A stretch of 64,000 nucleotides of DNA from the NCBI RefSeq assembly GCF_030867095.1, contig NC_081826.1:37736001-37800000 (forward strand), given 5' to 3'. Under the pieces are notes generated by a model that was not told the DNA's origin, ran no database searches, and saw nothing but the letters and a program-made list of their open reading frames with translations. Shown here in pieces: positions 4,215 to 62,570 of the stretch. The position numbers and the translations under genes were made by a program. Positions within the stretch are counted from its first letter, which is position 1, and each line of letters opens with the position of its first letter. This stretch comes from Alligator mississippiensis. Taxonomy: Eukaryota; Chordata; Crocodylia; Alligatoridae.

Positions 4215-4612
4215 TAGGGACTGGTGACAAAAACAATCAAGGGCTTGGAAAGCATATCATACAAGGAGAGGTTGAAGAAACTAGGCATATTCAGCTTGCA
4301 GTAAAAGCACTTAAGAGATGACATGATAGCAGTCTTCAAATATTTGAAGGGCTGCCATAAAGAAGCGGTAACGTGCCTTTTCTCTCTTGCTGCTGCAGAG
4401 AGTAGGGTGAGGACCAGTGATTTGAAATTGTAGCAAAGTAGGTTTAGGGTAAATATCAGGAAAAACTTCTTCACTGTTAGAACAGTGAAGCAGTGGAATA
4501 GACTGTCTAGGGAAGTTGTGGACTCTCTTTTACTGGAGTTGTTCAATGAAAGGTTGGACAGCTACTGGCTGGGAGTGATCTAGGAATAGCTATGCCTGTG
4601 TTCTCCTATGGG
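4215..4612 (+). mobile_element. CR1 LINE 3' fragment (old)
   Basis: This reads as the last part of CR1 ORF2 and the 3' UTR in decayed form. It shows the order 'Y-E-E-R-L-K-K-L-G-I-F-S-L', then 'L-R-D-D-M-I-A-V-F-K-Y', then 'V-N-I-R-K-N-F-F-T-V' and 'W-N-R-L-S-R-E-V-V-D-S', which is the usual C-terminal CR1 sequence. It is more diverged than the CR1 copies at 4925 and 15144, so it is an older insertion or a different subfamily. The terminal short repeat is not recognisable. Confidence 0.7.
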
Positions 4613-4904: not shown

Positions 4905-4924
4905 TATAGCACAGAGGAGAATTC
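4905..4924 (+). repeat. Left target-site duplication of CR1
   Basis: This 20-base word is repeated at 5889-5908 with a single G/A difference and exactly brackets the minus-strand CR1. The right copy sits at the 5'-truncation point, as expected for target-primed reverse transcription. Confidence 0.75.
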
Positions 4925-5888
4925 ATAGATTCATAGATTCATAGATGTTAGGGTCGGAAGGGACCTCAATAGATCATCGAGTCCGACCCCCTGCATAGGC
5001 AGGAAAGAGTGCTGGGTCTAGATGACCCCAGCTAGATGCCTATCTAACCTCCTCTTGAAGACCCCCAGGGTAGGGGAGAGCACCACCTCCCTTGGGAGCC
5101 CGTTCCAGACCTTGGCCACTCTAACGATGAAGAAGTTCTTCCTGATGTCCAATCTAAATCTGCTCTCTACTAGCTTGTGGCCATTGTTTCTTGTAACCCC
5201 CGGGGGTGCCTTGGTGAATAAATACTCACCAATTCCCTTCTGTGCCCCCGTAATGAACTTATAGGCAGCCACAAGGTCGCCTCTCAACCTTCTCTTGTGG
5301 AGGCTGAAAAGGTCCAGTTTCTCTAGTCTGTCCTCGTAGGGCTTGGTCTGCAGGCCCTTAACCATACGAGTGGCCCTTCTCTGGACCCAGGTTATCTGCA
5401 TCCCTCTTGAAGTGCGGCGCCCAGAATTGCACGCAGTACTCCAGCTGCAGTCTGACCAGCGCCCGATAGAGGGGAAGTATCACCTCCTTGGACCTATTCG
5501 TCATGCATCTGCTGATGCACAATAAAGTGCCATTGGCTTTTCTGATGGCTTTGTCATGCTGCTGACTCATGTTCATCTTAGAGTCCACTAGGACTCCAAG
5601 ATCCCTTTCCACTTCCATGCCACCCAGCAGGTCATTCCCTAGGCTGTAGGTGTGCTGGACATTTTTCCTCCCTAGGTGCAGCACTTTGCACTTCTCCTTG
5701 TTGAACTGCATTCTGTTGTTTTCTGCCCACTTGTCCAACCTGTCCAGGTCTGCCTGCAGCTGTTCCCTGCCCTCCGGCGTGTCCCCTTCCCCCCATAGCT
5801 TTGTGTCATCTGCAAGCTTGGACAGAGTACATTTCACTCCCTCGTCCAAGTCGCTGATGAAGACATTAAAGAGTATCGGTCTAATTGG
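4925..5888 (-). mobile_element. CR1 LINE, 5'-truncated, with target-site duplication
   Basis: This minus-strand copy begins in the reverse transcriptase just before the ADD catalytic motif (translated [12 protein letters not shown], then L-A-D-D-T-K-L-W-G) and runs through the C-terminal domain to the 3' end with tandem ATTCATAG words (4921-4950 on the + strand). One frameshift near 5360-5400 splits the ORF2 remnant into two overlapping frames. The first catalytic-motif residue is Leu where related copies have Phe. The element is bounded by near-identical 20-base direct repeats at 4905-4924 and 5889-5908 (TATAGCACAGAGGA followed by GAATTC or AAATTC). It is the same subfamily as the copy ending at 16680. 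Confidence 0.9.
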
Positions 5889-5908
5889 TATAGCACAGAG
5901 GAAAATTC
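5889..5908 (+). repeat. Right target-site duplication of CR1
   Basis: This is the partner of 4905-4924, at the 5' truncation point of the CR1 copy. Confidence 0.75.
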
Positions 5909-6529: not shown

Positions 6530-7187
6530 CAGGACTGTGAGGTGCTTTTGCCTGCCTTTGTAGCAGTGGGGTGTGTCCCTCTACCTGGGATGTCTTAAGC
6601 ACATATTAACAATCTTTTCATAAAAACAAGACATTTGTTGCCATGGTTCTCCTACTTTACCTGTGAAACATTAGGATGTTATGTCTTTTATTATAACAGG
6701 GTTATGCTAATGTGGCAGAGCACAATTGGGGTGCTCACCACTTAGGGTACTGCTGCAGGTTACAGAGGAGCCTGCATGGTGAGCAGCAGGGAGACACCTC
6801 CCATGGTAGCCACTTTAAGGGGGAAGGTGTGTGACAGAGCATCTCTGGTACTCTGTCACTGTTAGAGCTGAGAGCAAGCAGCCAGCAGGTGCAGGCCAGC
6901 CCTGATGAGGCAGCTGTCTTAGATCCCAGCTCTCAGGGCTGAGGCAGCAGTTTGCTGCCAGTTGCTGAAGGAGCAACAACACACAGCTGAGCTGCTGTTC
7001 ATGCAACAGTTTGGAGGTATGGGAGGAACTAAGGGGATGGCAGGAGGTTCCTATGGGCCCAGAGTGGTCCCAAGCTCCAGGAAGAAGGCTGAGTCCTAGT
7101 GAGAACAAGGTCTAGAAAGGGGGCTAACAGCTGATAGGCCTACAAGGGGGCTAGGCAAGCCCCAGAGTAGAAGAGGACTCTCTGGTG

Positions 7188-7374
7188 CAGGGGAAGGCAA
7201 TTATTTTGGACAGAGGGCTGCTTACTGAGTTTTGGCAAGCCATCAAGGGCCGCATGACAGGCAGCCCAGGGCAGATAAATATTAATTTTCTAAAATTTTT
7301 AGGGGCCCCCTGGGCTGAATAGAGTGGCCTGGAGGGCCGCATCCAGCCCCTGGGACTCATTTTGCCCACCTCTG
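7188..7374 (+). mobile_element. hAT-type MITE with intact 8-bp TSD
   Basis: This 187-bp element begins CAGGGGAAGGCAATTATTTT and ends ATTTTGCCCACCTCTG. These are imperfect terminal inverted repeats of the widespread hAT pattern CAGGGGTGGGCAAA. It is flanked by a perfect 8-base direct repeat CTCTGGTG (7180-7187 and 7375-7382), the target-duplication length of the hAT superfamily. It has no coding capacity, so it was mobilised in trans. Confidence 0.88.
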
Positions 7375-8504
7375 CTCTGGTGGGACCCAGGAGAGACCCC
7401 TCTGGAGTATGGGGGTCAGCAGCTGCTAGGCTGACTTCTGATCCCTTGCTCTGGTCAATGCAAGAGGGCCAGGGCCAGAAGGGCAGTTATGCCGAATGCA
7501 AGGGGTAGGCCAGGACCAAGGTGAGCTATCTGGCACCCTGACTGGCCTGGAGGCAGGGCCAGAGCCCATATGGGCTGAAGGTCCCTCCGATGGGGGGGAA
7601 CTTAACAGCTGAAAAAGGTAGGGGTCAGCCAGCATGCAAGCTGTTATAATATTGGAATGGGGTCAGAATGAGAGCTGGGCCCAATGAGAGAGAGAGAGCC
7701 TAAGGACATCATCCAGCAGCCCTAAGGACAGAACTAGACCAGGACAGGTAGGTCTGCTTGGTCCTGAGTAAGATGAAAAACTGCACCCTGCCAGGGAAGG
7801 GTGTCCCCAAGAAATGCCATACCAGTTGCCTCCCCAGTGAATGGCAGGCAGGGGTGCCTTAAAACCCCAGCTCCCACCATCTGGTGGGTTGTTAAGACTG
7901 GAGGACAGTGGGGCCAGGCACGCCCAGGGTAGGCACCTGAATCCAGTGTGAGTAGTGTGGGGCAGGCACACTTGTTAAGAAACACCTGAGCCCCATGTGG
8001 CGGTATAAGGCCCCAGGGAGGGGCAGTGGAGACCCCAAAGAATAGTGGGGCCAGGCATGCCCAGGGAGGGGCACCTGAGCCCATGGGGGTGTAAGATCCT
8101 GGTAGTAGTAGGGCCAGAGGCACCTGAGCCTGGGGGAGATGTAAGACCCTGAGGCCCCAGTATAGTGGTTGAGTTTGGGCCCCAGAGAGGGGGATGTATT
8201 GAAGCCTCAGGAAGGGAGCAGCTAGGCCCTGATAAGTCTTTGGATGACTGAGGCTGCAAATGGGCCTGAGGCTGAGTGGGTGAGTAATTGACCTTAGCGG
8301 GGGAGCAAGAATGAGGTACCCAGTGTGGTGCTTGGGGGTTAGATCTGTGCCCAAGGTGAATTGGCTGGTCACTGCTCAGATGAGGGTCACGGGAGAGGCC
8401 TGAAAGGCTGCACCAGGGCCAGTCAAGGAGCATGAGTAGGAAAGCCTGATGGCCTATGCAATCGCCCAAAGGGGTAGGGGAGGTTGGGTGTGGCTCAGTG
8501 AGGA

Positions 8505-8595
8505 GCAGCATGTAAGAGGCCTTGTGAGAGAGGGCAGAGTGCAAGAGGCCCCAGTGAGACGGGGGCAGTATGAATGAGGCCCAATGGAACAGTGT
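8505..8595 (+). repeat. Degenerate ~30-bp tandem repeat
   Basis: Three units start at about 8505, 8534 and 8565 (GCAGCATGTAAGAGGCC, GCAGAGTGCAAGAGGCC, GCAGTATGAATGAGGCC), each followed by a G/A-rich spacer. This is a decayed minisatellite inside the 6830-8868 element. Confidence 0.6.
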
Positions 8596-8910
8596 GATAA
8601 GATGAATGAATAGGGCCAAGAAGGAGGCTGAAGTTGGCCTGGACACGAGCTGGAGCTAAAACCAATTCAAGGATGTCATCTGTGAGGCATGGGACATGAT
8701 AAGGGAAGGTTGGAGTCTGTCCATCAGGGTCTTAAATGAGCAGCCTTCCACATTTATTACAACCATTATCATAACAACAAGGTATGACAGATGAGACGGG
8801 ACAGATTGCTCTAGACAGGCAGGGAGGCTGGTACTGTGACCAGGCCTGGGAGTTTGCACCCTGTCACAGTAGTTTTACAAATAATTTAAGATCTGGATTG
8901 CATTAGGATG

Positions 8911-9010
8911 GTTTGGACAGGGATGATTCTGCTTCAGGCAGGGTGTTGAACTAGATGGCCTTTGGAGGTCCCTTCCAGCCCTGCTTCTCTATGATTCTAT
9001 AATTCTGTGT
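8911..9010 (+). mobile_element. CR1 LINE 3'-end fragment
   Basis: The 3'-terminal CR1 signature is present: 'GGTGTTGAACTAGATGGCC', then 'AGGTCCCTTCCAGCCCTGCT', then tandem ATGATTCTAT-type words. Only the 3' UTR remains, with no ORF2 sequence. Confidence 0.75.
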
Positions 9011-9383
9011 CTCAGTGACCCAGGCAGTTCCTTCCAGTCCTCTTTTCCTATTCTCTAGCATAATTTGATATCAGTCTGAAGCCCAGTTTACATGTGGCAG
9101 CAGCTCATATGCATGCTCTTGCCCAAGCTCACTAAGAAGGTATTTAGTCATCACAGTAGCCGTAGCAGAGCTGAGACCCAAGAGACCCCAAGCAAGTCCT
9201 TGCACAAGGGAAGAGGAAGGGGAAGTGGCATGATTCTAGTTCTAGTCTATATCTGGGTTTGATAAATTCCTAAGTATTTTGGGAATAGCATCTTGAGCCA
9301 ATTGCCAACTTTACTGGCCCCTACAAAGGCCTAACTTAGCAGGCTCTGTTGGGAGTTAAACAGATCTGTAGGGAAAACAATCG

Positions 9384-9454: not shown

Positions 9455-12210
9455 ACAGAGAAGCGGACAACACTGATGGCCCATATCAGCCTCTTAAACA
9501 CCACACAACCTGCAGTCATGGTCTGGCTGGCAAAGCTGTTTCCTCATTTTCAAATCCACTGGCCCACTAAGGGTGACTTTCATGGCTGTACAAATTGTCC
9601 ACGGGAGGCCCATGTACCCCATATCTCTCATAAGCCATCTTATTTTGACAAAAAATTTGGAAGCATCCACAGATGTTTCGAAAACACAGTTTGAAAATTC
9701 CGGCTACAACCTAAACCCCTGCATTTTTAATGTGAACACTTTGGGCACGAGCATTCATTTGGCAGTCTCAGAGATTAAGCTGCAGTGATTCATTCTTGCT
9801 CGAAGGATGAAGTTTGAGGTTTAATTTTGAATTCCATTACTTTTTCAGTCACTGATGGACCCATGGCATTTCATCCCCACTAGGCATGTTATGCTGTGTT
9901 TCCCAAGGCAGTGGCATAGTTTGGAGCCACATGCAGCTTGGCCACGTGTTGTGACTGGGTTTGTAAGGGACAGACCTGATGGAGGCAGTAACTTCCCCCC
10001 AGAAGCAGCATCATGTTAGCAATTCCAGTTGTCAGCATGGTGCATTTTGTGCATCATTCTCCACCCTACAGATCCTTTCTACCGTTGGCATCACACCAGG
10101 ATCACAGTGACTTTCCACCAAACTGTACAATGCCAAGTGCCACCACAAGCTTCTCATCCCTCCCTCCCACCTCCCGAACAACCCCCTTTGCGCTTCTAGT
10201 GAAGGGACTTCATCCCTGCAGTAAGGGTAATGTTGCATCACAACTTTATCTGGCAGGGCTGCAAAGACACCTTCTTATATGGGATGTAAAAATAGCATTT
10301 ACAGTTTCACACAAAGACAAAAATGCCAGTGAGGTTTTGACTGGTAGCCACTCTTCCTGATTTGGAATCCATAAAGAAGCCTAAAAGCCTGGGTTGATAA
10401 AGCTCCAGTTCGAGACAGTAGCAAAATCCTTAGTGAGACCTTAGTGAAAGGTGTTTTTTTCAGGTCTTTATTTTCTTCATGAGATCTCATTTTGTTCTCA
10501 ATGGCTCCTGATCCTGGCTTAGTATAGTAAAATGCATTTCCCAGAAATCCATGCCACTGTCACTACCACCATCCACCATTCTCTAATTTCTGGCCAACTA
10601 TAGCAAAAATATGCAGTCCACATGAAAGTCACTGGACCGAGTTCAGCAACAGCATACTTGGTGGCATGGATTATGTCCTGGGCATCAGTTGGTAACAAAA
10701 CAGGTGAAAGTGGCAAAGCACTAAAGTTTGTAGCAAATAATGCCTTGCTGCAAGTGTCAATTTATGTGGAAAGCTGAGGAGGGGAGCATTTGGCAGGAAG
10801 ATCACCCTATTGTGAAGAGCAAGGCATTGCTGGTTTCCTTTCCTGCTATAGGCACATACTAGCCCAATTCCTGATGTAGAAAGTACAGTTACATGCTATA
10901 GCTTGTATTAAATAGCAACCCACGAGAGGGTCATGTGACCCCAACATACTTTTCTTTGTTAGTGGTTTATGTCAGTGTTGGCTGTCAGCTGCTCTGATGG
11001 GAAGTCTGCCTAGAAGGAGATTGCCATGGCGTGAGTCACTTGAGTCAGCTCTGTACCTTTCCAGCCCTCTTAGTAGTAGAAACTATTGCTGATCATGGTA
11101 CTAAACCAACAGTAGGGCAAGCCCAAGACTCCTATTATGCCCTGTCCCACTACAGGTGGAGAAAGCTTCTTGTGCCCTCTGTTTCTCTGCTGGCCCAGGC
11201 GTTGGTGCTGAGCATTATGTCTCTGGCTCAATGGCTTTCCTAACATGTTCACACTGTTACATATAAACCTGCTTTGTTTGACAGCTTCCTCTTTAATACA
11301 GCATAAATCCCAGTGTAGCAATACTGAAATAATACAGGGGCAAATCCTGAGCAACTTCAGCTTTCATCAGATTTACTTCAGAAAAATTCCACTGAACTTC
11401 TGAGTAAGAAGAACCTTGTCTAAGACTGTAAGAATTTGTCCAGAGTAACCATTGTCAGTATGAAAGGAACATTAACTATGTTATTCCCATCTGGCTTTGG
11501 ATCTCCTGGAATAGCTCATCTGTTATTCCCCTCACACAGTGCTCTTAAAAGGAGCCTGTCAGATGAGGACATTGCTAAAACAGCTTGTTTTGTTCTAAAA
11601 TTTGCATATTTTTACTATGGTAACTTTGATTAGCATAAACAATACCATGTGCAGACTGAAGTCATTCTACTTACCCCCCCCGGTACATATATATCAGGTA
11701 GGGGGATGGAGTGATCTATGCTGCCCCTCTCAGATAAAAGTTTAACCATTTCAAGATAAGGTTCAGCCCTGCTGTAATCCCTGCAAACCCTGCCTGCTGC
11801 CTACCAGGGGGCAGGGTTAAACACTGACTGTCCCTTGCTTTTATTTTCCCACTCCCTTTCTCTTCCTTGACTCCCCCATTCACTACATTCATGCCATTCA
11901 CTACATGTGTTATCCCCTTATCCCCTCCAGCCTCATCCTATCTGTTCTTGCATCTCATAGATCGTAAACACTCCAGAGTGAGACTGTTTCCTTTTCTATT
12001 TTTATGCACTGCACAGCCCCATGGGACCCCAGTTCTGACTTGGAGCCTTTGGGAATTTCTACAACGCAGGTGATGGTGATGATGAAGTTGCCAGTTATTT
12101 TCCCAGTCAAGTCAGGTTTTAACACTGAAAGTTCCTTTCCAGAAGCTACATTTATTTCTATAACTCGATTCATGGAAGACTCAAGTTGAAAGAGATCAGA
12201 CAGTAAAATC

Positions 12211-13540
12211 CGACTTAAAGGCATACAGTTCTTCCAAGTGACTCTGCACCATCTCAGGGTCTACGCATGGCAGTCTGGTGCCTTGCTGCTGCCTCTCTAC
12301 AACCCCAGTGAGAGACTTGTCCTGCCCCTCGCTTAGGAACACTGAGGCAAAGAACTCGTTGAGGAGTTCAGCCTTGTCCCCCCTGTCCGTCACCAACTGT
12401 TTCTGCCCATTTAGCAGGGGTCCTATTCCTCCTTGGGCCTTCCTTTTACTCCCTATATATCTAAAAAACAATTTCTTGTTGTCCTTTACTTGGGATGCCA
12501 TCCTCAGCTCCATGGTAGCTTTGGCCTGTCTAACTGCCTCCCTACAAGCACGAGCAGAGGAGGTATATTCGTCTTTGGTGATCTCTCCTTGTTTCCACTT
12601 TTTGTGTGCTCCCCTTTTGTCCCTTAGACTGCCCTGGATTTCTGCGGTCAGCCAGGGAAGCCTCCTGGCCCCTTTCCCTCTTTTACCCCGCACAGGGATC
12701 ATCTCTCTTTGTGCCCCAAGGATCGTTTCCTTAAGGCACAGCCTTCTTGGGCTCCCATCCCTTCAAAACTCCTACTCTGCAGTGCGTCCTTGACTAATCA
12801 CCTGAGTTCATTTAAATCAGCTTTCCTAAAGTCTAGTACTTTCACCCTACTAGTTACCTTACCCACTCGCCGTCTTATGGTGAATTCTATTATAAGGTGA
12901 TCACTGTCCCCCAGATGGCTACCAATCTGTAGGTCCCCTACCATGTCATCCCCCGTTGCCAATACCAGATCCAGTATGGCATTCCCCCTAGTGGGACCAT
13001 GTACCTCCTGTGTCAGGTGGAGGTCCTGTACACAGGTTAGAAACCTGCGTGAGCGGTGGGACTTTGCCGTCTGTGTCTCCCAGCAGATGTCCGGGTAGTT
13101 TAGGTCCCCCATGACTACCGCCTCTTTAGCTTTTATGGTCTCCAAGAGCTGCCTCAGGAGCCCCGCATCTATTTCTTCCCCTTGATGTGGGGGTCTGTAG
13201 CAGACCCCTACCACCAAATCCCTTTCTCCTTGCCCCCCATGTAGCCTAACCCACAATCCTTCTACTTCCTCAACCTCGGATTCTGTCTTGATGAGGGTTG
13301 ATGTATATTACTCACTGACATAGAGCACAACCCCTCCCCCTTTCTTCCCCACCCTGTCCTTTCTGTACAATCTATAACCCTCAATATGTACCGCCCAGTC
13401 GTGGGACGAATCCCACCAGGTTTCCATTAGCCCTACTAAGTCATAGGTGTTTTGTGCAAGCAGGAGCACTAGTTCATCCTGCTTGTTTCCCATGCTCCTA
13501 GCATTAGTATATAGGCACTTGAGCCCTGCGACTGGTGCCT
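12211..13540 (-). pseudogene. CR1 ORF2 N-terminal part: AP-like endonuclease
   Basis: Reading minus, the frame passes L-K-C-L-Y-T-N-A-R-S-M-G-N-K, then the apurinic-like endonuclease landmarks G-L-M-E-T-W-W (catalytic Glu), V-V-M-G-D-L-N-Y-P-D-I-C-W (catalytic Asp/Asn) and L-G-D-S-D-H-L-I-I (catalytic Asp-His). The linker W-L-T-A-E-I...H-K-K-W-K and the start of the reverse transcriptase follow. It is broken by a stop after G-G-V-V-L-Y-V-S-E (13308-13310), another after D-L-N-E-L-R, and a frame change near 12700. The sequence stops at 12211, where the inversion breakpoint lies; the remainder of the protein is on the opposite strand from 15144. In life this enzyme nicks target DNA to prime reverse transcription. 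Confidence 0.85.
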
Positions 13541-13740
13541 TTGCTGCCCCCCGCTCCGAGTCCCAAGGGGCCCATTGTTTCTTACCTTCTCATTTCTTAC
13601 CTGTGCCGTAGTGCTGGCGGCCCCACGTCTTGCAGGTTCCCAGTGTTCTCTTTCTTCAGGCTGGGCTGTCCTTGTGGGTGCCACATGGTTTGGTGGTCCA
13701 TAGCTTCCCCCGCCCTCATCTTCCCCTCCCCCCAGTGAGC

Positions 13741-14805
13741 CTAGTTTAAAGCCCGCCGGAGGAGATCCGCCAACCTAGAAGAAAACACGCGCTTACCTTT
13801 GGGGGACAGGTGAAGCCCATCCCAACTGAGCATGTCCCTCGTCGTGATGTGCGGGTCGTTGTCCAGGAAGCCGAAGCCTGCCTCGAATCACCACTGCTGA
13901 AGCCGCCAGTTGGCCTCTCGGATGCAGTTCTCATGCCGTCTTCCACATCCGTTCACTAGTAGGATGGAAGAGAAAACCACCTGTGCACCGAACTCCCTCA
14001 GCACGCCGCCTAGAGCACTGTAATCCTCCATCAGGTGATCGGGGGTTCTCCTGGCTGCATCATTAGTACCCACATGGACTAGGACCATGGGGTAGTAATC
14101 GGTGGGCTTGATCCTGGCCTGGATTACCTCCTTCACATCCCGAATCTTTGCTCCGGGCAGGCAGTATACCTCTTGTGTTGAGGGGTCCTGGCGACAGATG
14201 GGCCCTTCCGTACCTCTCAGGATGGAGTCGCCTATGACGAGCACTCGTCGCCTCCTCCTCTGGGTCCTCGTGGATCTCTTGACCTGTTCGGAGTGTGAAG
14301 AATGTGGTGTTTCTTCTTGCCCAAGGGTTTCCTCCTCCCCTTCCATCTCCTGCAGGGTCGCCAGGGCCTCGTACCTGCTCTCCAGTTGGACTGGAAGAAC
14401 TGGTACCTGTTCGCTGCGAGCAGCTCTGGTCCTGGATGTGACCGTCTGCCACTCTGCTGTGGAGGGCACTCCCCAGGCTGCTTCTTCCTTGGGTGCCTGG
14501 GCCTGCAGGGAAAGGAAATATCTGTCAATTTCATCCTCCGCCTCCCTGATCCCCCTCAGCCTGCTAACCTCCTCCCGGAGCTCCCTCACCTGCGCCTCCA
14601 GAGCCCTAAGACGGGCACCTGCTGGACAGGTGTGGGGGCCCCCAATCTCTGCTCCCCCCGGCCCTGCTGGGGATCCCCTGCAGGCCAGGAGGTAGGGGGA
14701 CATCAGCTCCCCCATGGGCTCAGTCTGGGTGGAGGCCTCAGACCAGCCCCGGTTAGCCATGTCCCTCTGGGCAGAGGCCCTAGCAGCACTCCTCGTCGAC
14801 ACCAT
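13741..14805 (-). pseudogene. CR1 ORF1, esterase-domain protein (one stop)
   Basis: Starting at Met (14803-14805) the frame runs 354 codons to TAG at 13741-13743, with a single internal TGA at 13888-13890 (after R-L-Q-Q-W). The N-terminal third is charged, with a likely coiled coil (L-R-A-L-E-A-Q-V-R-E-L). The C-terminal half is an SGNH/GDSL-type esterase fold: V-L-V-I-G-D-S-I-L-R-G with the nucleophile Ser, V-H-V-G-T-N-D-A-A, and H-L-S-P-K-G near the end providing the usual His. CR1 ORF1 proteins bind element RNA and commonly carry this esterase domain. One stop in an otherwise open frame suggests a fairly young insertion. The downstream ORF2 lies on the same strand. Confidence 0.85.
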
Positions 14806-15143
14806 TCTAAGCTGCTGTTTGTTTGTCTACGCCCTACCCATACAGGAGTCTCTCTCCTGACCCTTCCTGCCCGCCCGCCGGCGCGAACGCCTGCGCAAAC
14901 GCCGGCGCGCTCTTACAGAGCATGCCTGTTTGCACACTCTGTTCGCGCTGCACGGCTTGGGAGCGCGGCTCCCTACCGGCTCAGCTATATGGGACCCAGG
15001 GGGCTTCCCCTCCGGAGCCGGCTCAGCTGTGCCAGGTCCTTCCACCTCTCTTACCTTCGGGGGATCACCTGTTGCTGCCCTCGCTGCTGTTTCCACTGCT
15101 GCTGCTTCCATCTCCACCTCGGGTCAGTAAGTTAGTTAGTTAA
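14806..15143 (-). mobile_element. CR1 5' UTR (inverted segment)
   Basis: A GC- and CpG-rich stretch upstream of the ORF1 start, consistent with the internal promoter region of full-length CR1 elements. It ends with GTTAGTTAGTTAAG directly at the inversion junction. High GC here belongs to the LINE and is not a host CpG island. Several overlapping open frames on both strands are by-products of composition. Confidence 0.6.
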
Positions 15144-16586
15144 GGGCCGGATGAGCTCCATCCGAGGGTGCTGAAGGCACTGGCCGACATCATTGCAGAG
15201 CCGCTGGCGGGAATATTCAAAAGCTCGTGGTGCATGGGCCAAGTCCCGGAGGACTGGAAAAGGGCCAATGTGGTCCCCATTTTCAAGAAGGGGAGGAAGG
15301 AGGACCCGGGCAACTATAGGCCAGTCAGTCTCACCTCCATCCTTGGCAAAGTCTTTGAAAAAATTATCAAGGCTCACATATGCGAGAGCCCGGCAGGACA
15401 AATTATGCTGAGGGGAAACCAGCACGGGTTCGTGGCAGGCAGATCATGCCTGACCAATCTAGTCTCTTTTTATGACCAGGTTACGAAACGCCTGGACACA
15501 GGAGGAGGGGTGGATGTCATATACTTAGACTTCAGGAAGGCCTTTGATACGGTATCCCACCCCATACTGGTGAACAAGTTAAGAGGCTGTGACTTGGATG
15601 ACTACACAGTCCGGTGGGTGGCGAATTGGCTGGAGGATTGCACCCAGAGAGTCATGGTGGATGGGTCGGCTTCGACCTGGAAGGGTGTGGGCAGTGGGGT
15701 CCCGCAGGGCTCAGTCCTTGGACCGATACTCTTTAATGTCTTCATCAGTGACTTGGACGAGGGAGTGAAATGACTCTGTCCAAGTTTGCCGATGACACAA
15801 AGCTATGGGGAGAAGTGTACCCACCGGAGGGCAGGGAACAGCTGCAGGCAGACCTGGATAGGTTGGACAAGTGGGCAGAAAACAACAGGATGCAGTTCAA
15901 CAAGGAGAAATGCAAAGTGCTGCACCTAGGGAGGAAAAATGTCCAGCACACCTACAGCCTAGGGAATGACCTGCTGGGTGGCACGGAAGTGGAAAGGGAT
16001 CTTGGAGTCCTAGTGGACTCTAAGATGAACATGAGTCGGCAGTGTGATGAAGCCATCAGAAAAGCCAATGGCACTTTATTGTGCATCAGCAGATGCATGA
16101 CGAATAGGTCCAAGGAGGTGATACTTCCCCTCTAGCAAGCGCTGGTCAGACCGCAGTTGGAGTACTGCGTGCAATTCTGGGCGCCACAATTCAAGAGGGA
16201 TGCAGATAACCTGGAGAGGGTCCAGAGAAGGGCCACTCGTATGGTAAGGGCTTGCAGGCCAAGCCCTATGAGGAGAGACTAGAGAAACTGGACCTTTTCA
16301 GCCTCCGCAAGAGAAGGTTGAGAGGCGACCTTGTGGCTGCCTATAAGTTCATTACGGGGGCACAGAAGGGAATTGGTGAGTATTTATTCACCAAGGCGCC
16401 CCCGGGGGTTACAAGAAATAATGGCCACAAGCTAGCAGAGAGCAGATTTAGATTGGACATTAGGAGGAACTTCTTCACAGTTTGAGTGGCCAAGGTCTGG
16501 AACGGGCTCCCAAGGGAGGTGGTGCTCTCCCCTACCCTGGGGGTCTTCAAGAGGAGGTTAGATAAGCATCTAGCTGGGGTCATCTA
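15144..16586 (+). pseudogene. CR1 ORF2 C-terminal part: reverse transcriptase
   Basis: The segment opens with [12 protein letters not shown] and continues through the reverse transcriptase blocks: [21 protein letters not shown], the Asp-bearing block [26 protein letters not shown] and the catalytic F-A-D-D-T-K-L. Breaks are a frameshift at about 15769 (between the D-E-G-V-K and L-S-K-F-A-D-D segments), a TAG at 16134-16136, a frame change near 16250, and a TGA after N-F-F-T-V. The C-terminal domain ends R-R-L-D-K-H-L-A-G-V-I at 16586. The missing N-terminal half is the inverted block to the left. Confidence 0.9.
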
Positions 16587-16680
16587 GACGCAGCACTCTT
16601 TCCTGCCTATGCAGGGGGTCGGACTCGATGATCTATTGAGGTCCCTTCCAACCCTAACATCTATGAATCTATGAATCCAT
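16587..16680 (+). mobile_element. CR1 3' UTR and terminal repeat
   Basis: After the ORF2 stop comes a short 3' UTR with GGTCGGACTCGATGATCTA and AGGTCCCTTCCAACCCTAAC. Tandem TCTATGAA words at 16661-16678, the CR1 3' microsatellite recognised by the reverse transcriptase, close the element. Confidence 0.85.
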
Positions 16681-16715
16681 TGCCCTAACATTAGATGCAT
16701 GACCAAGGGCTAGGG

Positions 16716-17126
16716 TAGGGGTCAGCAACCTTTAGGGAGTGGCAGGGCAAAATCAAGCCACTGCTTGCAACTCCGCTGCCGCAGCCACTGCCAGTGCCAA
16801 TGCTGCTCTTAGTCATAGCTACTTCCCCACTGCAGTTACCAGTGCTACCACCCCTTACCCCTCACCACTGATTGCAGTTACCGCTAACTTCTGCCTGCAG
16901 TGAATTTGACAGTGAGAAAACCAAGAGTTATAGGGGGTGCAAGAGAGAGTGGGATTGGGGCGGCAGCAGGCATGCTGTAGACAAACTGCTCAGGTACACA
17001 GGAATGCTACTGCTCCACCCCCCACCCCGCACCGCAGAATTGCTGCCAACATCCTGGCTCCAGAGCCCAGATGCAATCGCTTGTCAGACCAGGCCCAGCC
17101 TGTGGACCGTAGGTTGCTGATGCCTG
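16716..17126 (+). mobile_element. hAT-type MITE (411 bp)
   Basis: The terminal inverted repeats are TAGGGGTCAGCAACCT on the left and AGGTTGCTGATGCCTG on the right, which fit the hAT pattern CAGGGGTCRGCAACC. Flanking 8-mers are GGCTAGGG (16708-16715) and ACCTAGGG (17127-17134), identical at six of eight positions and sharing the CTAG core favoured by hAT elements. It is non-coding. Its interior (16759-17006) recurs almost unchanged at 19210-19455. Confidence 0.75.
16759..17006 (+). repeat. Duplicated segment, copy 1
   Basis: This 248-base block matches 19210-19455 with about three substitutions and a 2-base length difference. Here it forms the interior of the hAT MITE. Confidence 0.9.
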
Positions 17127-18586
17127 ACCTAGGGGAAAGGTATTTGACTATATTCCTGCAACTTATTAAAATGTAATTAAACCAACCAATGTCTTTCTGA
17201 GTGTGTAACTCTGCACAGTATTCAAACCTGAGGAGTTCTGAAAGGTGACCTGGTTTCCTTGACATAAGAGAAGTAGTTAGGAGTGTTGGGAAAGCTGAGG
17301 GCTCCTCATTTTGCATAGGGAGCACCTCACATTGCATAACAACACCCCCAGCTGATGAAGATGCATTGCTGTGGCCCCAGGAAGCTGTGCCTTTGAGCCC
17401 AGCTTGACTAGATGAATGGAAGGGCAAAATGTGTTCATGAATGGAGAAACTAGACAGTTGGGGGTAAGTTGAGCCATCTGTAGTCTATAGCAAGGACCAA
17501 AACTCCCAGCATGGAGAGGGATGGAGACAAGATAATTAGAGGTGACATGTTGAGCTAAGCTTGTAAAACTAACCATCCCCAGATTTGTGCATACAATTGC
17601 TATGTGTAAGAAAAAACTTATACATATGCAGATTTAGATTTAGATATACAAATACCTAGTTTGTATGCAAAAATACAAGTTTTCATGTGCAACTACAGTT
17701 CACATATACAGTGTCATGTTTTGCAGGCAGTTTAGGCACCCAGCTTAGGGAATGTAGCTCTTACTGTCATAAAATTAAAATGTCCTAACCTACCTCTTTT
17801 ATTTTGAGGAATAACAAAGTAATAAAACATACTAGTACTTGCTAATTATGAATATACTAGAATAGTAAATACATAACATAATTATTGAAAACACGCAATT
17901 TTTCTGGGGGACCAGGATTTCACTTCTCTGTAGAATGACCCATAGATGGTTTTGGTCTCTGAATCAGTATATATGTATGAAACTCAGTCAAAAAATAACA
18001 TTTATCTGTCCCTTACATGAACTAGGCACTTCACAGATATAGAAGGAGCCACTGCCCTGAAAAGGTTACAGTGTAATAAGACAACTGGTAGGAGAGTGAG
18101 GGAGGCAAGCAGAATTTGGGGGAAATGAATAACAGACAAGAAAAATGAAGCAGGGGATGGGGGAAAGAAACATACAAAATTAAAGAAATGGTGTTTCATG
18201 TTGTGTGGACATGCATCTTTTTTTGCTTCACAGATCTAATGCGTCTTGATGATTTGTTGCACTGTTGCTGTGTCTAATGGGCTGTAAGGATGACAAGATG
18301 TTCTAAAGAATATTTTAATAGGAAAAAATCTAACCTCAGCCCAAATGTGGAACTGTCTCATAGTGCCTAAATAGGGAAACAAGTTTATGGAGCAAAAGAC
18401 CCTCCAGTTGAAGAAAACATGTGTTTATAAAATGGTGCACTTTTGCTCCTATTAGGAGTCTGTCATGAGAACTGAGGCCAATGCTTATGGAGTACGCTGC
18501 TTGCTGTTTCCACCATTAAATAAGTAAAGCCTTGTAGTCGCATCCTGTAGCTTTTATCAACCCTGTGCTTCTGTCCCACCATCTAG

Positions 18587-18804: not shown

Positions 18805-20110
18805 AGATAGTCACTGGTCTCAGTCTGTAAGATGTGCCTGCTCCTTTAAGAGCAGAAGCAGCCTACCTAGAGAGCCCTGAGAGCTAGGCAGCGCTCCCCA
18901 GGTGCAGGTTGCCCTGGCAGCAGGCTAATGAGGGAATTAGCTGGCACCTGTACCCGGTCAGCTGACCGGAAGGAGACAGGGCTCTGGGTACGTATAAGCC
19001 CTGGGCCTGGCAGGAGTCAGTTCTCTGGCAGCAGCCAGGGGTAAGGAGCTCTTGCAGGCAAACTTACTCAGAGATGCTTGGTTGCCTGTTGTGCTACTGG
19101 TGAGACTAACGGGCTTAAAGAGCTGCTAAAGTACCTGAGGCTAGGAGACACATTGCAGAGGGAAAAGCTTCTCTTCACATGCTTGCTGTGGTTTTCACAT
19201 GCTTGCCTTCACTGCTTGCAACTCCGCTGCCGCAGCCACTGCCAGTGCCAATGCTGCTCTTAGTCATAGCTACTTCCCCACTGCAGTTACCAGTGCTACC
19301 ATCCCTTACCCCTCACCACTGATTGCAGTTACCGCTAACTTCTGCCTGCAGTGAATTTGACAGAGAAAACCAAGAGTTATAGGAGGTGCAAGAGAGAGTG
19401 GGATTGGGGCAGCAGCAGGCATGCTGTAGACAAACTGCTCAGGTACACAGGAATGGTACTGACCACCCCCCTGTGGCCTAAGACCACAGCAGGTTGGGCT
19501 GGGTTGGAGCAGCTCCAGCTGGCAGATGGCCCAGGGGGCCAGCCTGCCAGTCCAGGGCTGTTCTTAAAGGGGAAGTGTGTGGTCTCCAGAGTTATGGTTA
19601 TTGTTATATTGTAGCCCGGGGGCTTGTATTTATGTTATTATTTGAACTGGTGGACCAGAATGAGGCTGATTAGGGAAGAGGAGGCCTCATAGGGGGCATG
19701 CTATGGTGTGGAGAGCCCAGCGCCAGAGGGTCCAGCGACAGGGGTCAGGAGCCCAGTGATAACAGAAGGCCGACTTAGGCAAAGACCTCATTACAGGGAC
19801 AACAATGATATACCAAATGCAAGGCATGGGGCCTGGTAAAGGGGCAGTTTTGGAGCCATACATCTAACCCATAAGGCTTGGGGTGTCCCGCAGGTCACCT
19901 AGTTAGAACGGGACCCAGCAAGGGGTCTAACAACCCACAGGGTTTAGTGGGGTCCATCAGGACCGTGACTTGCGCAGCAACTTGAGGGCAGCCTCCTTAT
20001 CTACTATCTAAACCAACAAGATGTGGTGGGCAAAGCTAGAAGGCACCCACAGGACGAAGCTGGCACGGTCACAGAACCCATCCCTGGGGACCCTGCACTG
20101 TGACGGATTC
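18805..20110 (+). mobile_element. LTR-like remnant (ends unresolved)
   Basis: GC-richer than its surroundings, it begins CTGCTCCTTTAAGAGCAG and contains a TATA-like GTATAAG at 18977-18983 followed by CCTGGGCCTGGCAGGAGTC. It ends near CCCTGCACTGTGAC. The layout resembles a long LTR of a Gypsy-like or retrovirus-like fossil. No coding region, primer-binding site or target duplication was recognised. It contains a copy of the 248-base block found in the hAT MITE at 16716-17126. Confidence 0.3.
19210..19455 (+). repeat. Duplicated segment, copy 2
   Basis: It is nearly identical to 16759-17006 but lacks both hAT terminal inverted repeats. The flanks diverge abruptly at both ends. It lies inside the LTR-like stretch 18805-20110. 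Confidence 0.9.
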
Positions 20111-37233: not shown

Positions 37234-37784
37234 ATTGGTATCACCTCCCTCGTATTGGACATAATGAAGCTTGAAGCTGAGGTGTTAGGAAACCACCTAT
37301 TCCAGCAGCTTTGCCAACTTCATTCTGTCCTTTTCCAGTTGGTCTCTCATTGTAGACCTCTGTCACACAGGTATGTGACTTTGGTAGTGGAGAATTTTCT
37401 GAATCTGAGAGGAAGCAGGTGTATACAAAGCTGCCACTCCTCTCATTGCTCCAACTGCTGCTGTACACCTCCCTTCTTTTGGCTTTCATTTCTAACATCC
37501 ATCCCCAGGAATGGGACAGGACAGTATGGCCAGCTCAAACCAGACTAGCACCAAGGGAGCCTGCAGCCAATGAGGCACATCCACTTGTGCAGTGCAGCAG
37601 TGGTGGTGGGGAACTACCTGCCCACAGGATGCAGGGGGAGCTTGCAGCCAGGGAGGTGAGGCAGGGGCTGTGGGGGCTACAACAACAATGGCCAGCTACT
37701 AAGAATTTGAAGAGTCTGGCATTAGCTTGAGAAAAGGCAGAGTGGAGTTTTTTTGAATCTACAGGAAATGAGAACGTTGCAGGA

Positions 37785-39630
37785 GTCTGTAGCAAAAGCC
37801 TTGCTAAAGCCAAGGCACATCATGTCCACTGCTCTTCCCACATCCACACAGCCAGTCATCTTGTCATAGAAGGCAATCAGATCGGTCAGACATGACTTGC
37901 CCTTGGTGAATCCATGCCGACTGTTCCTAATCACCTCCTCCTCCAAGTGCTTAGAAATGGATTCCTTGAGGACTTGCTTAATGATTTTTTCCAAGGACTG
38001 TGGTGAGGCTGACCAGTCTGTGGTTCCTCAGATTCTCCTTCTTCCTTTTGGGTACTATATTTCCCTTTTCCAATCATCCTCTCCCAATTGCCATGCATTT
38101 TCAAAGATGATGGCCAGCAGCTCTGCAAGCACATTGGCCAACTCTCTCAGCACCCATGAGTACATCACATCCAGCCCTGTGGACTTTTACATATCCAGCT
38201 GTTCTAAATAGTCCCTAACCCATTCTTCCACCACTGTCAGCTGCTCACCTCCTTCCCAAACTGTGCTGCCACGTGCAGTAGTCTGGGAGTTGACCTTGCC
38301 TGTGAAGACTGAGGTAAAAAAGGCATTGAGTACTTCTGCCTTTACTGCACGATCTGTCACTAAGCTGCCTCCCCCATTAAGTAAGGGCCCCACACTGTCC
38401 CTAACCTTCCTCTTGTTGTTGGCATACTTGTAGAAACCTTTCTTGTTATTCTTCATGTCCCTTGCTAGCTGCAACTCCAATCACACTTCAGCCTTCCTGA
38501 TTTCATCCCTGCATACCCAAGCAATACTTTTATACTCCTCCTTAGTCATTTGTCCAAGCTTCCACTTCTTGTAAGCTTCCTTTTTGCGTTTTAACTCACT
38601 GAAGAGTTCCCTGCTAAGCCAAGCTTGTCTCCTGTCATACTTGCTAGTCTTCCTGCAAATCAGGATGGTTCGTTCCAGGTGCCCTAAGTAAGGTTTATTT
38701 AACATACAACCACCTCTCCTGGACTCCTTTCCTCCTCAGGCTGGCCTCAAAGGGGATCCTGCCCATCAGTTTCCTGAGTGAGTTGGAGTCCTTACCCTGC
38801 TGCTCTTCTTCCTTCCTTTCCTCAGGATCCTGAACTCAATTATCTTAATGATTGCTCCTGCCCAAGTTGCCATCCACTTCTATGTTCTTCACCAATTCTT
38901 CCCTGTTCGTGAGCTGTAGGTCACGAAGACCATGGCCCCTAGTTGGCCTCTCCAATACTTGCACCAGGAAGTTGTCCCCAACACTCTCGAAAAATTTCCT
39001 GGCTTGCCTGTGCACTGCTGTATTGCCCTTCCAGCAGATGTCAGGGTGATTGAAGTCTCCCATGAGAACCAGGGCCTGTGATTGGGAAACTTCTGTTAGT
39101 TGTCTGAAGAAAGCCTCATCCCCCTCATCCTCCTCGTTTGGTGGTCTGTAGCAGACACCCACCATGACATCACCCTTGTTGTTCTCCCCTGTAACCCTAA
39201 CCCAGAGACTTTCAACAGGCCTATCTCCAGTTTCATATAGAGCTCTGAGCAATGATACAGCTGTTTTACATAAAACGTAACTCCTTCTCTTCTCCCCTGT
39301 CTGTCCCTCCTGAATAATTTGTACCCATCTGTGACAGTGCTTCAGTCATGCGAGCTATTCCAAGTCTGGTATTCCAGTCATATCACAGTTATATGACTGT
39401 AAGGACTTCCAGTTCTTCCTGCTTGTTTCCCAGGGTCTGTACATTCATGTAGAGACACCTGAGGTAACTAGCTGATTGCCTTACTCTCGCAGGAAGACTG
39501 AGAAGGCCTTCACTGTTGCTCCTTCCTGTTTGTGCTTCTTTCAGTGCACCCACTTATCTCAGGGCTTTGCTCTCCATCCCTTGGTGAACCTAGCTTAACG
39601 CCCTCCTCGTTAGGTTAGCGAGCCTCTATG
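37785..39630 (-). mobile_element. CR1-type LINE lacking its 3' end
   Basis: Reading minus from about 39630: the ORF1-ORF2 junction region; endonuclease landmarks V-M-V-G-V-C-Y-R-P-P-N-E, L-V-L-M-G-D-F-N-H-P-D-I-C-W and R-P-T-R-G-H-G-L; the linker with K-N-N-K-K-G-F-Y-K-Y; and reverse transcriptase up to N-S-R-H-G-F-T-K-G-K-S-C-L-T-D-L and D-M-M-C-L-G-F-S-K-A-F. There it stops, before the catalytic F-A-D-D block. ORF2 is broken into at least five frames. Because LINE insertion starts from the 3' end, the absence of reverse transcriptase C-terminus, 3' UTR and terminal repeat points to later loss. It is more diverged than the 15144 copy. Confidence 0.85.
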
Positions 39631-59658: not shown

Positions 59659-62570
59659 TGTTAGGACTAGGATTAGTGAAGTTCATGCCCTGCAGCCTGA
59701 TTAACTGGGCCAGCTAGACCCAATGAACTAACCACACCAGTTGAGCCCTAGCCTGCAGGGGCAAGACTAAGTAAAGTGTCTGCCCTGCAGCTGCAGTAAC
59801 TGAGCCTAATAAACTAATCAGTGCCAGCTAAGCCCTAGCCCCTTCCCTCCAACTGGTTCCAAGTCTGCTCTTAAGGAACCCCTCCAGCACCTGAGCCTTG
59901 CTCCATAATTTACTAATCTCCACTCCTTTCTCAGCAACTCCTCTGGCTCCCTATCATGCTGGGCCTAGCTTCCTATTGTGAGTGGATGACCTCTACCTGA
60001 CTCAAGAAGTCTACGGGCCAACGAGAGGTAAAGTGCTGCTAGACCTGGTACTGGCTACTGGGGATGACCTAATCAGCAACCTAGTGATCGATGAGAAGCT
60101 GGGTGACAGCGACCATGAGCTGATCCCAGCTTTACGGCGGATGGTGAAGGTGAAGTCAGTCTGCTTTCCTGAAGTCAAGGACTTCAGTGTTGCTGACTGT
60201 GACAAGCTCAGGAGGCTTGTCAGTGAGGCCCTAAGGGACCACAACCCCAGGCGGAAGGGAGTCCAGGAAGAGTGGTTGCTCCTCAAGGGAGCGATCCGCA
60301 ATGCACAAGCAAATTCTATTCCATCTCGGACGAAAAGGCAACAAGAGGGCACAGCAGCCCCACTGGCTCTCCAGGGATCTAGCAGACCTCCTGAGGCTAA
60401 GAAAGGCCTACAAAGGCTGGAGGACAGGATTCACCTCCAAGGAGGAATATTCTGCATTGGTCCGGTCCTTCAGGGAGCAAACCAGGAAAGCCAAGGCTGC
60501 AAATGAACTCCAACTAGCTTCAAGCATCAAGGACAATAAAAAGTCCTTTTTCAGATATATGTGGGGAGCCGGAGGAAAAGCAAGGGCAACATTGGACCCC
60601 CGCTGAACCAGATGGGACTGATGCCCAGGGAAGAGTCAACCTATTAAATGGGTACTTTGCATCAATTTTTCATCAGTCCCATGGGATGCCCATGCTCACT
60701 ACAGGAGAGGGAGGTCTGGATGAGGGAGATCCCTTACCCTCCATCAATGTGGACCTTGTAAAGGAACACCTTGAGAGGCGGGATATTTTCGAGTCAGCTG
60801 GCCCTGACAATCTATACCCCAGGGTACTCAAGGAGCTGGCGAGCATCATAGCCCAGCCTCTGGCATGGATCCTTGAGAACTCCTGGTGCTCTGGTGTAGT
60901 GACCGAAGACTGGAAGAAGGCCAAGGTGGTGCCTATCTTCAAGAAAGGGAGGAAAGTGGATCCAGCAAACTATAGGCCCATCAGCCTAACTTCTATCCCA
61001 GGAAAGATCTTAGAAAAGTTTATTAAAGAGGCCATCCTTAATGGACTGGCTGACGCCAACATCCTGAGGGATAGCCAGCACGGGTCTGTAGGTCTTGCTT
61101 GACCATCTCATTTCCTTTTATGACCAGGTGACCTAGCACCTGGACAAGGGAGAAGAGATTGATGTCATATATCTTGACTTCAAAAAAGGCTTCGATCTAG
61201 TATCCCATGATCACCTCTTGGCGAAACTGGCCAGTTGTGGCCTTGGGTCCACCACAATCCACTGGCTGGGAAATTGGTTCCGTGGTCAGACCCAGAGGGT
61301 TGTAATTGATGGAAGTCAATCGTCATGGTGCCCTGTGACCAGTGGGATCCCCCAAGGCTCTGTCCTTGGACCCATATTGTTCTACATTTTCATTAACGAT
61401 GTGAACACTGGAGTCAGAAGCGGACTGGCCAAGTTCGCTGATGACACCAAACTTTGGGGCAAAGCATTCACACCTGAAGGCAGGAGGGAGATCCAAGCTG
61501 ACCTGAACAGGCTCAGCAAATGGGCGGACAAGAACCTGATGGTGTTTAACACTGGAAAATGCAAGGTTCTCCACCTTGGGAAGAAAAACCTACAGCATCC
61601 TTATAGGCTCGGCAGTGCTATGCTGGCTAGTACTACAGAAAAAAGACTTGGGGGTCATCATTGACCACAAGATGAACATGAGCCTTCAATGCGATGCTGC
61701 GGCTAGTAAAGCGACCAAAACGCTGGCTTGCATCCATTGATGCTTCTCAAGCAAATCCCGGGACATCATTCTCCCCATGTACTTGGCCTTGGTGAGGCCA
61801 CATCTGGAGCACTGCATCCAGTTCTGCGCTCCACAATTTAAAAAGGATGTGGAGAAGCTTGAGAGAGTCCAGAGAAGAGCCATGCACATGATCAGAGGTC
61901 AGGAAAACAGACCTTATGACGACAGGCTGAGATCTATGAGGCTGTTTAGCCTGGAAAAGCACAGGCTTAGGGGTGATCTGATGGCCACCTATAAGTTTAT
62001 CGGGGTGACCATCAGTATCTGGGGAAACATTTGTTCACCAGAGCGCCCCAAGGGATGAGGAGGTCAAATGGTTATAAACTACTGCAAGACCGTTTCAAGC
62101 TGGACATAAGGAAGAATTTCTTTACTGTCCAAGCCCCCAAGGTCTGAAATAGCCTGCCATCGGAGGTGGTTCAAGCACGTACATTGAACACCTTCAAGAG
62201 TAAATTGGATGCTTATCTTGCTGGGATCCTATGACCCCAGGTAACTTCCTGCCCTTTGAGCGAGGGGCTGGACTCGATCTTCCGAGCTCCCTTCCAGCCC
62301 TAATGTCTGTGAAATCTATGAAATCCCTAACGCCTGGCTAACCGTCCAGCTGAGTCTGTGGATTTCAGTTTGACTTCTGCTTCTCTCCTGACTTCTGAAC
62401 CCTGGTTAGACCTCTGCTTTGGTTTTGGACTCTGGGCTTTGGTCCCTGCCCCTCAGTTTGGAACTTGGGTTGCCTTTGGTCACTCCCAACCTGCGGTTCA
62501 AACCTGCAGCCCTTCTAGTCCTCATTCCTGGATCCACCCACTAAGTATGACTCCCTTGTGAACCATAACA
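59659..62570. mobile_element. Solo-LTR-like remnant split by a CR1
   Basis: The outer ends are TGTTAGGACTAGG (59659) and GAACCATAACA (62570), a TGTTA...TAACA inverted pair. Flanking pentamers GTGTG and GGGTG agree at four of five positions. Without the inserted CR1 (59974-62336) it would be about 550 bp, a plausible solo LTR of an old retrovirus-like or Gypsy-like element. The left half holds two imperfect copies of a 60-80 base unit (CTGCAG.CTG..TAACTG.GCC, from 59692 and 59789). No coding region is present. Confidence 0.45.
59974..62336 (+). mobile_element. CR1 LINE, 5'-truncated, second subfamily
   Basis: It starts inside the endonuclease (M-D-D-L-Y-L-T-Q-E-V-Y-G-P-T-R-G, then L-G-D-S-D-H-E-L-I). 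It passes the linker and reverse transcriptase ([54 protein letters not shown]) and the C-terminal domain. The end is GTCTGTGAAATCTATGAAAT at about 62336. Reading frames change at about 60300, 60590, 61090, 61640 and 62030, with extra in-frame stops, so it is a dead copy. Sequence differs from the 4925/15144 subfamily. Confidence 0.9.

Follow-up and report, generated by a model that had tools for sequence, protein, structure and literature searches.

A CR1 element (CR1 is a common vertebrate jumping element) in a 64,000-nucleotide stretch of the Alligator mississippiensis genome, hereafter the window, is a near-complete copy whose front two thirds are flipped relative to the rest. Its 5' part is inverted, its 3' part has the normal orientation, and the two breakpoints abut. 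The best explanation, to which we give a probability of roughly 0.75, is a single near-full-length insertion with a 5' inversion by twin priming. Twin-primed 5' inversion, in which RNA is copied from two DNA ends during insertion, is well known for mammalian LINE-1 (L1), and was reportedly described there by Ostertag and Kazazian in 2001.

Structure of the inverted CR1

The inverted 5' block (12211..15126, minus strand) was delimited by open reading frames and Pfam matches and contains the 5' region, ORF1, the endonuclease and the ORF2 linker as far as the residues K-S. The forward 3' block (15144 to about 16673, plus strand), delimited by PF00078 and by identity to a second CR1 copy (copy A, below), runs from the reverse transcriptase (RT) through the 3' tail. 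Together they make up about 4.46 kb, in which ORF1, the endonuclease, the RT and the 3' tail are all represented; the element is near-complete, as a preliminary description of this DNA had proposed. Both block ends were also as it had placed them: the minus-strand block ends in the linker residues L-Y-A-F-K-S (12213-12211 being the S codon), and the plus-strand block begins with G-P-D-E-L at 15144. The left outer edge of the element is thus at about 12211, and the sequence beyond the S codon gave no CR1 match. When both blocks were compared with the window by blastn, no homology between them was found at E 1e-3 or better. A CR1 3' end is missing from the inverted block and a CR1 5' end from the forward block, so neither of them, taken alone, amounts to a complete standard insertion. 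The 5' UTR had also been placed at the internal junction; a CR1 5' region, possibly with only part of the 5' UTR, does lie there.

On the minus strand, ORF1 has an open stretch of 312 aa (13888..14826) ending in an in-frame stop at 13888-13890, past which the frame stays open to about 13740. It gave a weak match to the esterase family PF13472 (E 4.9e-4) that, at 21.1 bits, fell short of the cut-off (32.9). The ORF2 endonuclease (12798..13589, minus strand) is broken by stops at 13308-13310 and 12798-12800; the portion at 12798-13307 matched PF14529 (E 3.7e-13) and PF03372 (E 1e-06), and the portion at 13308-13589 had a PF03372 match below the cut-off (E 1.8e-4). The linker upstream of the RT (12211..12762, minus strand) had no Pfam match. 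On the plus strand, the RT at 15144-15773 matched PF00078 (E 3.8e-23), and the forward block carries lesions at about 15773, at 16133-16135, at about 16245 and at 16483-16485. The APE-type endonuclease and the RT of one ORF2 are therefore both present, but damaged and on two strands. The element ends, as expected of CR1, in an octamer microsatellite, ATCTATGAATCTATGAATC (16659..16677, plus strand), made of two units and part of a third. A test for a 3' UTR hairpin at 16575-16673 found folding no better than that of shuffled sequences (z 0.04; 98 of 200 shuffles were no less stable).

Abutting breakpoints

Several CR1 copies lie within the window, and three of them served for comparison. Copy A (4925..5884, minus strand) is 5'-truncated and not inverted; it is identical to the forward block in 916 of 965 columns (95%), an identity that assigns it to the same subfamily, and its tail has three units of the same octamer. 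Copies B (59937..62322, plus strand) and C (37764..39463, minus strand) are older and diverged, C being damaged as well. Both carry endonuclease, linker and RT in that order on a single strand, and they are colinear with the inverted element's linker up to the break and continue across it.

These two copies show how much sequence is missing at the break. In copy B, tblastn puts linker residue 184 at 60796 and the first RT residue at 60800. The linker match in copy C stops at residue 179 (38196), from which residue 184 was extrapolated to 38181; the first RT residue of that copy is at 38177. Linker and RT are separated by one codon in each copy (A in B, T in C), so the inverted CR1 is short of 3 nt. 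The proposal that the two halves make one ORF2 with at most a codon lost therefore holds. The loss would be 4 nt if the last base of the S codon is target DNA. In an alternative reading, which we retain as a possibility but did not choose, the inverted block would be 3 nt longer, reaching 12208 and including the missing residue D, with 0 nt lost. Two breakpoints at most 4 nt apart in a 4.46-kb element are expected by chance in about 0.2% of cases under a uniform model.

Target site and internal junction

The best candidate for a target-site duplication is the 5-bp motif AATCC (12207..12211 and 16674-16678, plus strand), which overlaps the tail motif and is not above chance: of 3000 random site pairs, 658 had at least 5 matching bases. 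Tight, gapped and wide searches around the inverted CR1 all gave chance-level results. Copy A, the positive control for this search, scored 35, where a score of 24 was reached by 1 of 3000 random pairs; its duplication of about 20 bp (4905-4924 and 5889-5908) is identical at 19 of 20 positions, with about 4 extra nt at 5885-5888. The inverted CR1 had been called a textbook case of twin priming. This is too strong, because it has no above-chance duplication, whereas the 95%-identical copy A has one of about 20 bp. A target-site duplication is not required by the twin-priming mechanism. In L1 5' inversions the duplications are mostly 10-20 bp, according to the account in PMC4245944.

A 17-nt tetranucleotide-like spacer, GTAAGTTAGTTAGTTAA (15127..15143), lies between the blocks and is one of 5 tetranucleotide runs of at least 3 units in the 64 kb. 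It is either the native 5' end of the element or nucleotides added at joining. Its comparison with the flanks used a size-matched null, because an earlier null had used longer stretches. The reverse complement of the spacer scored 6 against the left flank (reached by 2996 of 3000 random pairs) and 11 against the right flank (615 of 3000), and a 6-mer common to the left flank and the junction, CAGTAA, scored 12, no more than chance (reached by 799 of 3000 size-matched pairs). Because the spacer has no above-chance match to either flank, a later inversion dragging flank DNA was rejected.

Decay of the two blocks

Decay was similar in both blocks by weak tests, and raw distances tended to be larger in the inverted block. 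Lesions counted by eye numbered four in about 2.47 kb of the inverted block and four in about 1.41 kb of the forward block (binomial tail 0.32, with low power). Observed/expected CpG was 0.43 in the inverted and 0.39 in the forward block, compared with 0.10 and 0.14 in the flanks; within the inverted block the 5' region had 0.75, ORF1 0.45 and ORF2 0.32. The branch of the inverted CR1 took up 0.20-0.31 of the tree length in the inverted block and 0.11-0.25 in the forward block, overlapping intervals from a test of low power. Before normalising, its median length was 0.30 (0.23-0.38) in the inverted block versus 0.14 (0.09-0.20) in the forward block, without overlap. Copies B and C are also farther from each other in the inverted block (JC distance 0.89 versus 0.64). 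The ratio of the element's distance to B over its distance to C was 0.98 at the median in the inverted block versus 0.80 in the forward block, with overlapping intervals.

Origin of the inversion

Twin priming, as originally proposed for this element, agrees with the abutting breakpoints, the gap of no more than 17 nt that separates the blocks, the similar decay, and the position of the 5' region where the blocks meet, as this mechanism predicts; the part of the proposal that did not find support is its description as textbook. From the anatomy of the observed structure, we infer the following step order and priming. After a bottom-strand nick by the CR1 endonuclease, the CR1 RNA would have been reverse-transcribed from its 3' octamer tail onwards, yielding the forward block. 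The top strand would have been cut before the first cDNA was complete, and its 3' end may have annealed in ORF2 immediately 3' of the K-S codons, priming a second cDNA. This cDNA would have run to or near the 5' end of the RNA and become the inverted block. Joining of the two cDNAs would then have left out one codon and put the 17-nt spacer between them, and the left side would have healed without a recognisable target-site duplication. Against twin priming stand the larger distances in the inverted block, the absent duplication, and the lack of 5' inversions in assays of the related element ZfL2-1 (see below).

The abutting breakpoints, the small loss and the absent outer duplication would be explained equally well by a normal full-length CR1 insertion and a subsequent DNA inversion, or two-break repair, flipping the 5' two thirds. 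We consider this rather unlikely: one breakpoint must land no more than about 17 nt from the 5' end of the element, and the spacer, if it were inverted flank, should carry the original duplication, which the flank comparisons above do not bear out. Two separate head-to-head insertions, the left one without its 3' half, would fit a genome in which nested CR1 are common (6,752 to 9,100 were used per crocodilian genome in the analysis described in PMC4316615) and a window with several CR1 copies. However, the deletion in the left copy must end within one codon of the truncation of the right block (the same 0.2% under the uniform model), and at most 17 nt lie between the two, which makes such an origin highly improbable. 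Just as improbable is a misassembly or cloning artefact at the inverted junction, since the window contains no N and an error with one-codon precision at a position resembling that of twin priming would be unexpected.

Relation to other LINEs

The L1 5' inversions described in PMC2912911 and the alligator element share an inverted 5' part, a normal 3' part and a 5' end at the internal junction. The CR1 differs from L1 in belonging to a different LINE clade and in having an octamer tail instead of poly(A), and from L1 inversions in having no recognisable duplication and an inverted cDNA that reached the 5' region. It resembles the amniote and crocodilian CR1 treated in PMC4316615 in having ORF1, an ORF2 with endonuclease and RT, and an octamer-repeat 3' end, a motif class named there. 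The vast majority of CR1 copies described there are heavily 5'-truncated, whereas this one is near-complete and inverted; it likewise differs from copy A, which is truncated and uninverted and has a duplication of about 20 bp.

Such inversions had been thought rarely illustrated for CR1. Documentation of this rarity is partial: a literature search for six exact phrases on inverted CR1 gave 0 papers, and the comparative paper in which CR1 inversions would most probably appear was outside its scope. An RT-protein scan of viral_contigs, a collection without vertebrate sequences, gave 26 pattern stretches, 0 of them confirmed, and exact 3'-end patterns had 0 matches in viral_contigs and 0 in genome_contigs, both collections without vertebrates.

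The stagger usually given for CR1 is 3-5 bp. In the cell assays reported in PMC4245944, ZfL2-1 (CR1-1_DR), an L2-clade relative of CR1, gave no 5' inversions, and Nimb-2_DR gave one; the authors suggested there that the overhang of ZfL2-1, about 5 nt, is too short to prime. The alligator CR1 is inverted, whereas ZfL2-1 made no inversions in those assays, and it is thus a useful natural case. A speculative possibility is that its subfamily makes widely staggered target cuts, about 16-20 bp apart as in copy A, so that the top-strand 3' end would be long enough for internal priming. CR1 would then be capable of L1-style twin priming, with the second primer copying the RNA to its 5' end. The element also preserves a CR1 5' region, which is hard to determine given the heavy truncation described in PMC4316615. 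An inverted CR1 whose sister copy in the window carries a long duplication offers a concrete case for asking whether overhang length decides which LINEs undergo twin priming; if the long-stagger reading is true, inversion frequency would track stagger length across LINE clades.

An inverted CR1 copy with a nearly seamless break in ORF2

The CR1 copy at 12211 to about 16673 consists of two blocks in opposite orientation: an inverted block (12211–15126, minus strand) with the 5' region, ORF1, endonuclease and linker, and a forward block (15144 to about 16673, plus strand) running from the reverse transcriptase (RT) to the 3' tail. Direct reading of positions 10501–18500 resolved both into remnant open stretches. 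On the minus strand these are ORF1 (13888–14826), with an esterase match (E 4.9e-4) below the Pfam cut-off; the endonuclease, with 12798–13307 matching PF14529 (E 3.7e-13) and PF03372 (E 1e-06), and 13308–13589 matching PF03372 below the cut-off; and the linker (12196–12762). On the plus strand, RT and the C-terminal part of ORF2 occupy 15144–15773 (PF00078, E 3.8e-23), 15752–16135 (PF00078, below the cut-off) and 16210–16485. The last of these and the linker gave no Pfam match, two of the seven stretches scanned. We take the copy to be a CR1 from general features of the family, from the domain anatomy and from the octamer 3' tail, as described in an excerpt of PMC4316615.

Further CR1 copies are present in the window, among them fragments at 4239–4583 and 4925–5884 (copy A, minus strand), which lie tail to tail and have diverged unequally. 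Directly downstream of the inverted copy, at 16710–17132, lies an element of about 420 bp, presumably hAT-like, whose 22-nt terminal inverted repeats are 82% complementary; similar translated sequence was found again near 19339–19614.

Two other CR1s, copies B (59937–62322, plus strand) and C (37764–39463, minus strand), are old, yet colinear over the position of the break. Copy B reads F-E-S-A-G-P-D-N-L here and copy C K-S-T-G-L-D; the inverted block ends in F-K-S and the forward block opens with G-P-D-E-L. Since one codon lies between the flanking parts in both B (60797–60799) and C (38180–38178, extrapolated over five residues; both tblastn coordinates), the broken copy lacks 3 nt. The number would be 4 if the last base of the S codon is target DNA, and 0 if the missing residue is the D. 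This bears out the preliminary description, in which the halves, one ending after A-F-K-S and the other starting at G-P-D-E-L, formed one ORF2 with at most one codon missing. The chance of two random breakpoints falling within 4 nt of each other in a 4463-nt element is about 0.002 if breakpoints are uniform, although actual truncation points concentrate towards the 3' end.

Internal junction and target site

A spacer of 17 nt, GTAAGTTAGTTAGTTAA (15127–15143), separates the 5' region from the RT block. It is a tetranucleotide-like run placed exactly at the junction, which is unlikely by chance because only five runs of at least three units, this one included, occur in the 64 kb. Compared with both flanks in both orientations it scored 6–11, values reached by 615–2996 of 3000 size-matched pairs and thus none above chance. 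The spacer may be the element's native 5' end or nucleotides gained at joining; passages of PMC4245944 report that roughly half of the zebrafish ZfL2-2 copies have extra nucleotides at the 5' junction.

No target-site duplication above chance flanks the inverted copy. The best candidate, AATCC (12207–12211 and 16674–16678), shares its first four letters with the expected next bases of the octamer tail, and at least five matching bases were found in 658 of 3000 random site pairs by the same search. A gapped search scored 11 (random pairs reached at least 10 in 2571 and at least 12 in 1349 of 3000), and when the left flank was widened to 200 or 1000 bases, 793 and 864 of 1000 random pairs, respectively, scored at least as high. 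By contrast, the 5'-truncated copy A, whose 5' junction carries some four additional nucleotides (CCAA), has a 20-nt duplication with one mismatch (4905–4924 and 5889–5908; score 35, where 24 was reached by 1 of 3000 random pairs), compared with the 3–5 bp commonly given for CR1. In passages of PMC4245944, L2-clade duplications peak at 3–5 bp, much like those of CR1-clade elements; longer CR1 duplications do occur, since the coelacanth list excerpted from PMC4255032 includes one of 10 nt. The missing duplication is informative because, with a pairwise divergence of some 5%, one of copy A's length should remain visible. Healing of the left end probably left no duplication or a very short one, or removed some target DNA. 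Separately, CCCTAACAT at the CR1 3' end (16652–16660) recurs 31 nt downstream in the flank (16683–16691), which may reflect chance or target-RNA homology.

Relative age of the two blocks

The forward block is identical to copy A in 916 of 965 columns. The inverted block has no close relative in the window, so the comparison of divergences proposed in the preliminary description was made only indirectly. Disabling lesions, counted by eye, number four in about 2.47 kb of the inverted block and four in about 1.41 kb of the forward block (binomial tail 0.32). CpG observed/expected is 0.43 and 0.39, respectively (flanks, 0.10 and 0.14), ranging within the inverted block from 0.32 in ORF2 to 0.75 in the 5' region. 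In bootstrapped distances to B and C, the intervals of inverted and forward blocks overlap both for the copy's branch relative to tree length (0.196–0.309 and 0.112–0.250) and for the ratio of its distances to B and to C (0.845–1.135 and 0.634–1.010). Its raw branch length is greater for the inverted than for the forward block (0.232–0.376 vs 0.088–0.201); the B-to-C distance is also greater there (0.89 vs 0.64), as expected if the inverted part of ORF2 evolves faster. A separate earlier alignment placed the forward block at K2P 0.41 from B and 0.55 from C, and the inverted linker about equally far from both (0.81 and 0.79). This pattern hints against a common origin of the blocks, but it is not clear in the bootstrapped distances, and the linker is saturated and poorly aligned.

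Origin of the inverted copy

Two separate insertions need a coincidence, as the abutment within ORF2 would have to be fortuitous. Inversion of the DNA after a normal insertion would explain most of the structure, but it requires a breakpoint at most 17 nt from the element's 5' end. A single twin-priming event, following the model as outlined in part of PMC2912911, would produce the block orientations, place the 5' region where it lies, and leave a near-perfect abutment with no longer host DNA between the blocks.

An exact-phrase search of literature outside subscription papers found no report of an inverted CR1; wording varies, so one may exist. Among polymorphic CR1 insertions in anoles, fewer than 10% are full-length, according to passages of PMC5389967. 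In passages of PMC4245944, 5' inversion is confined to L1 in human cells, with one Nimb-2_DR insert in DT40 cells as the sole exception, and the overhang of ZfL2-1, about 5 nt, is suggested to be perhaps too short. We put the probability that this alligator CR1 arose by twin priming at roughly three in four; the order of cuts, internal priming and extension to the 5' end of the RNA would then have followed that model.
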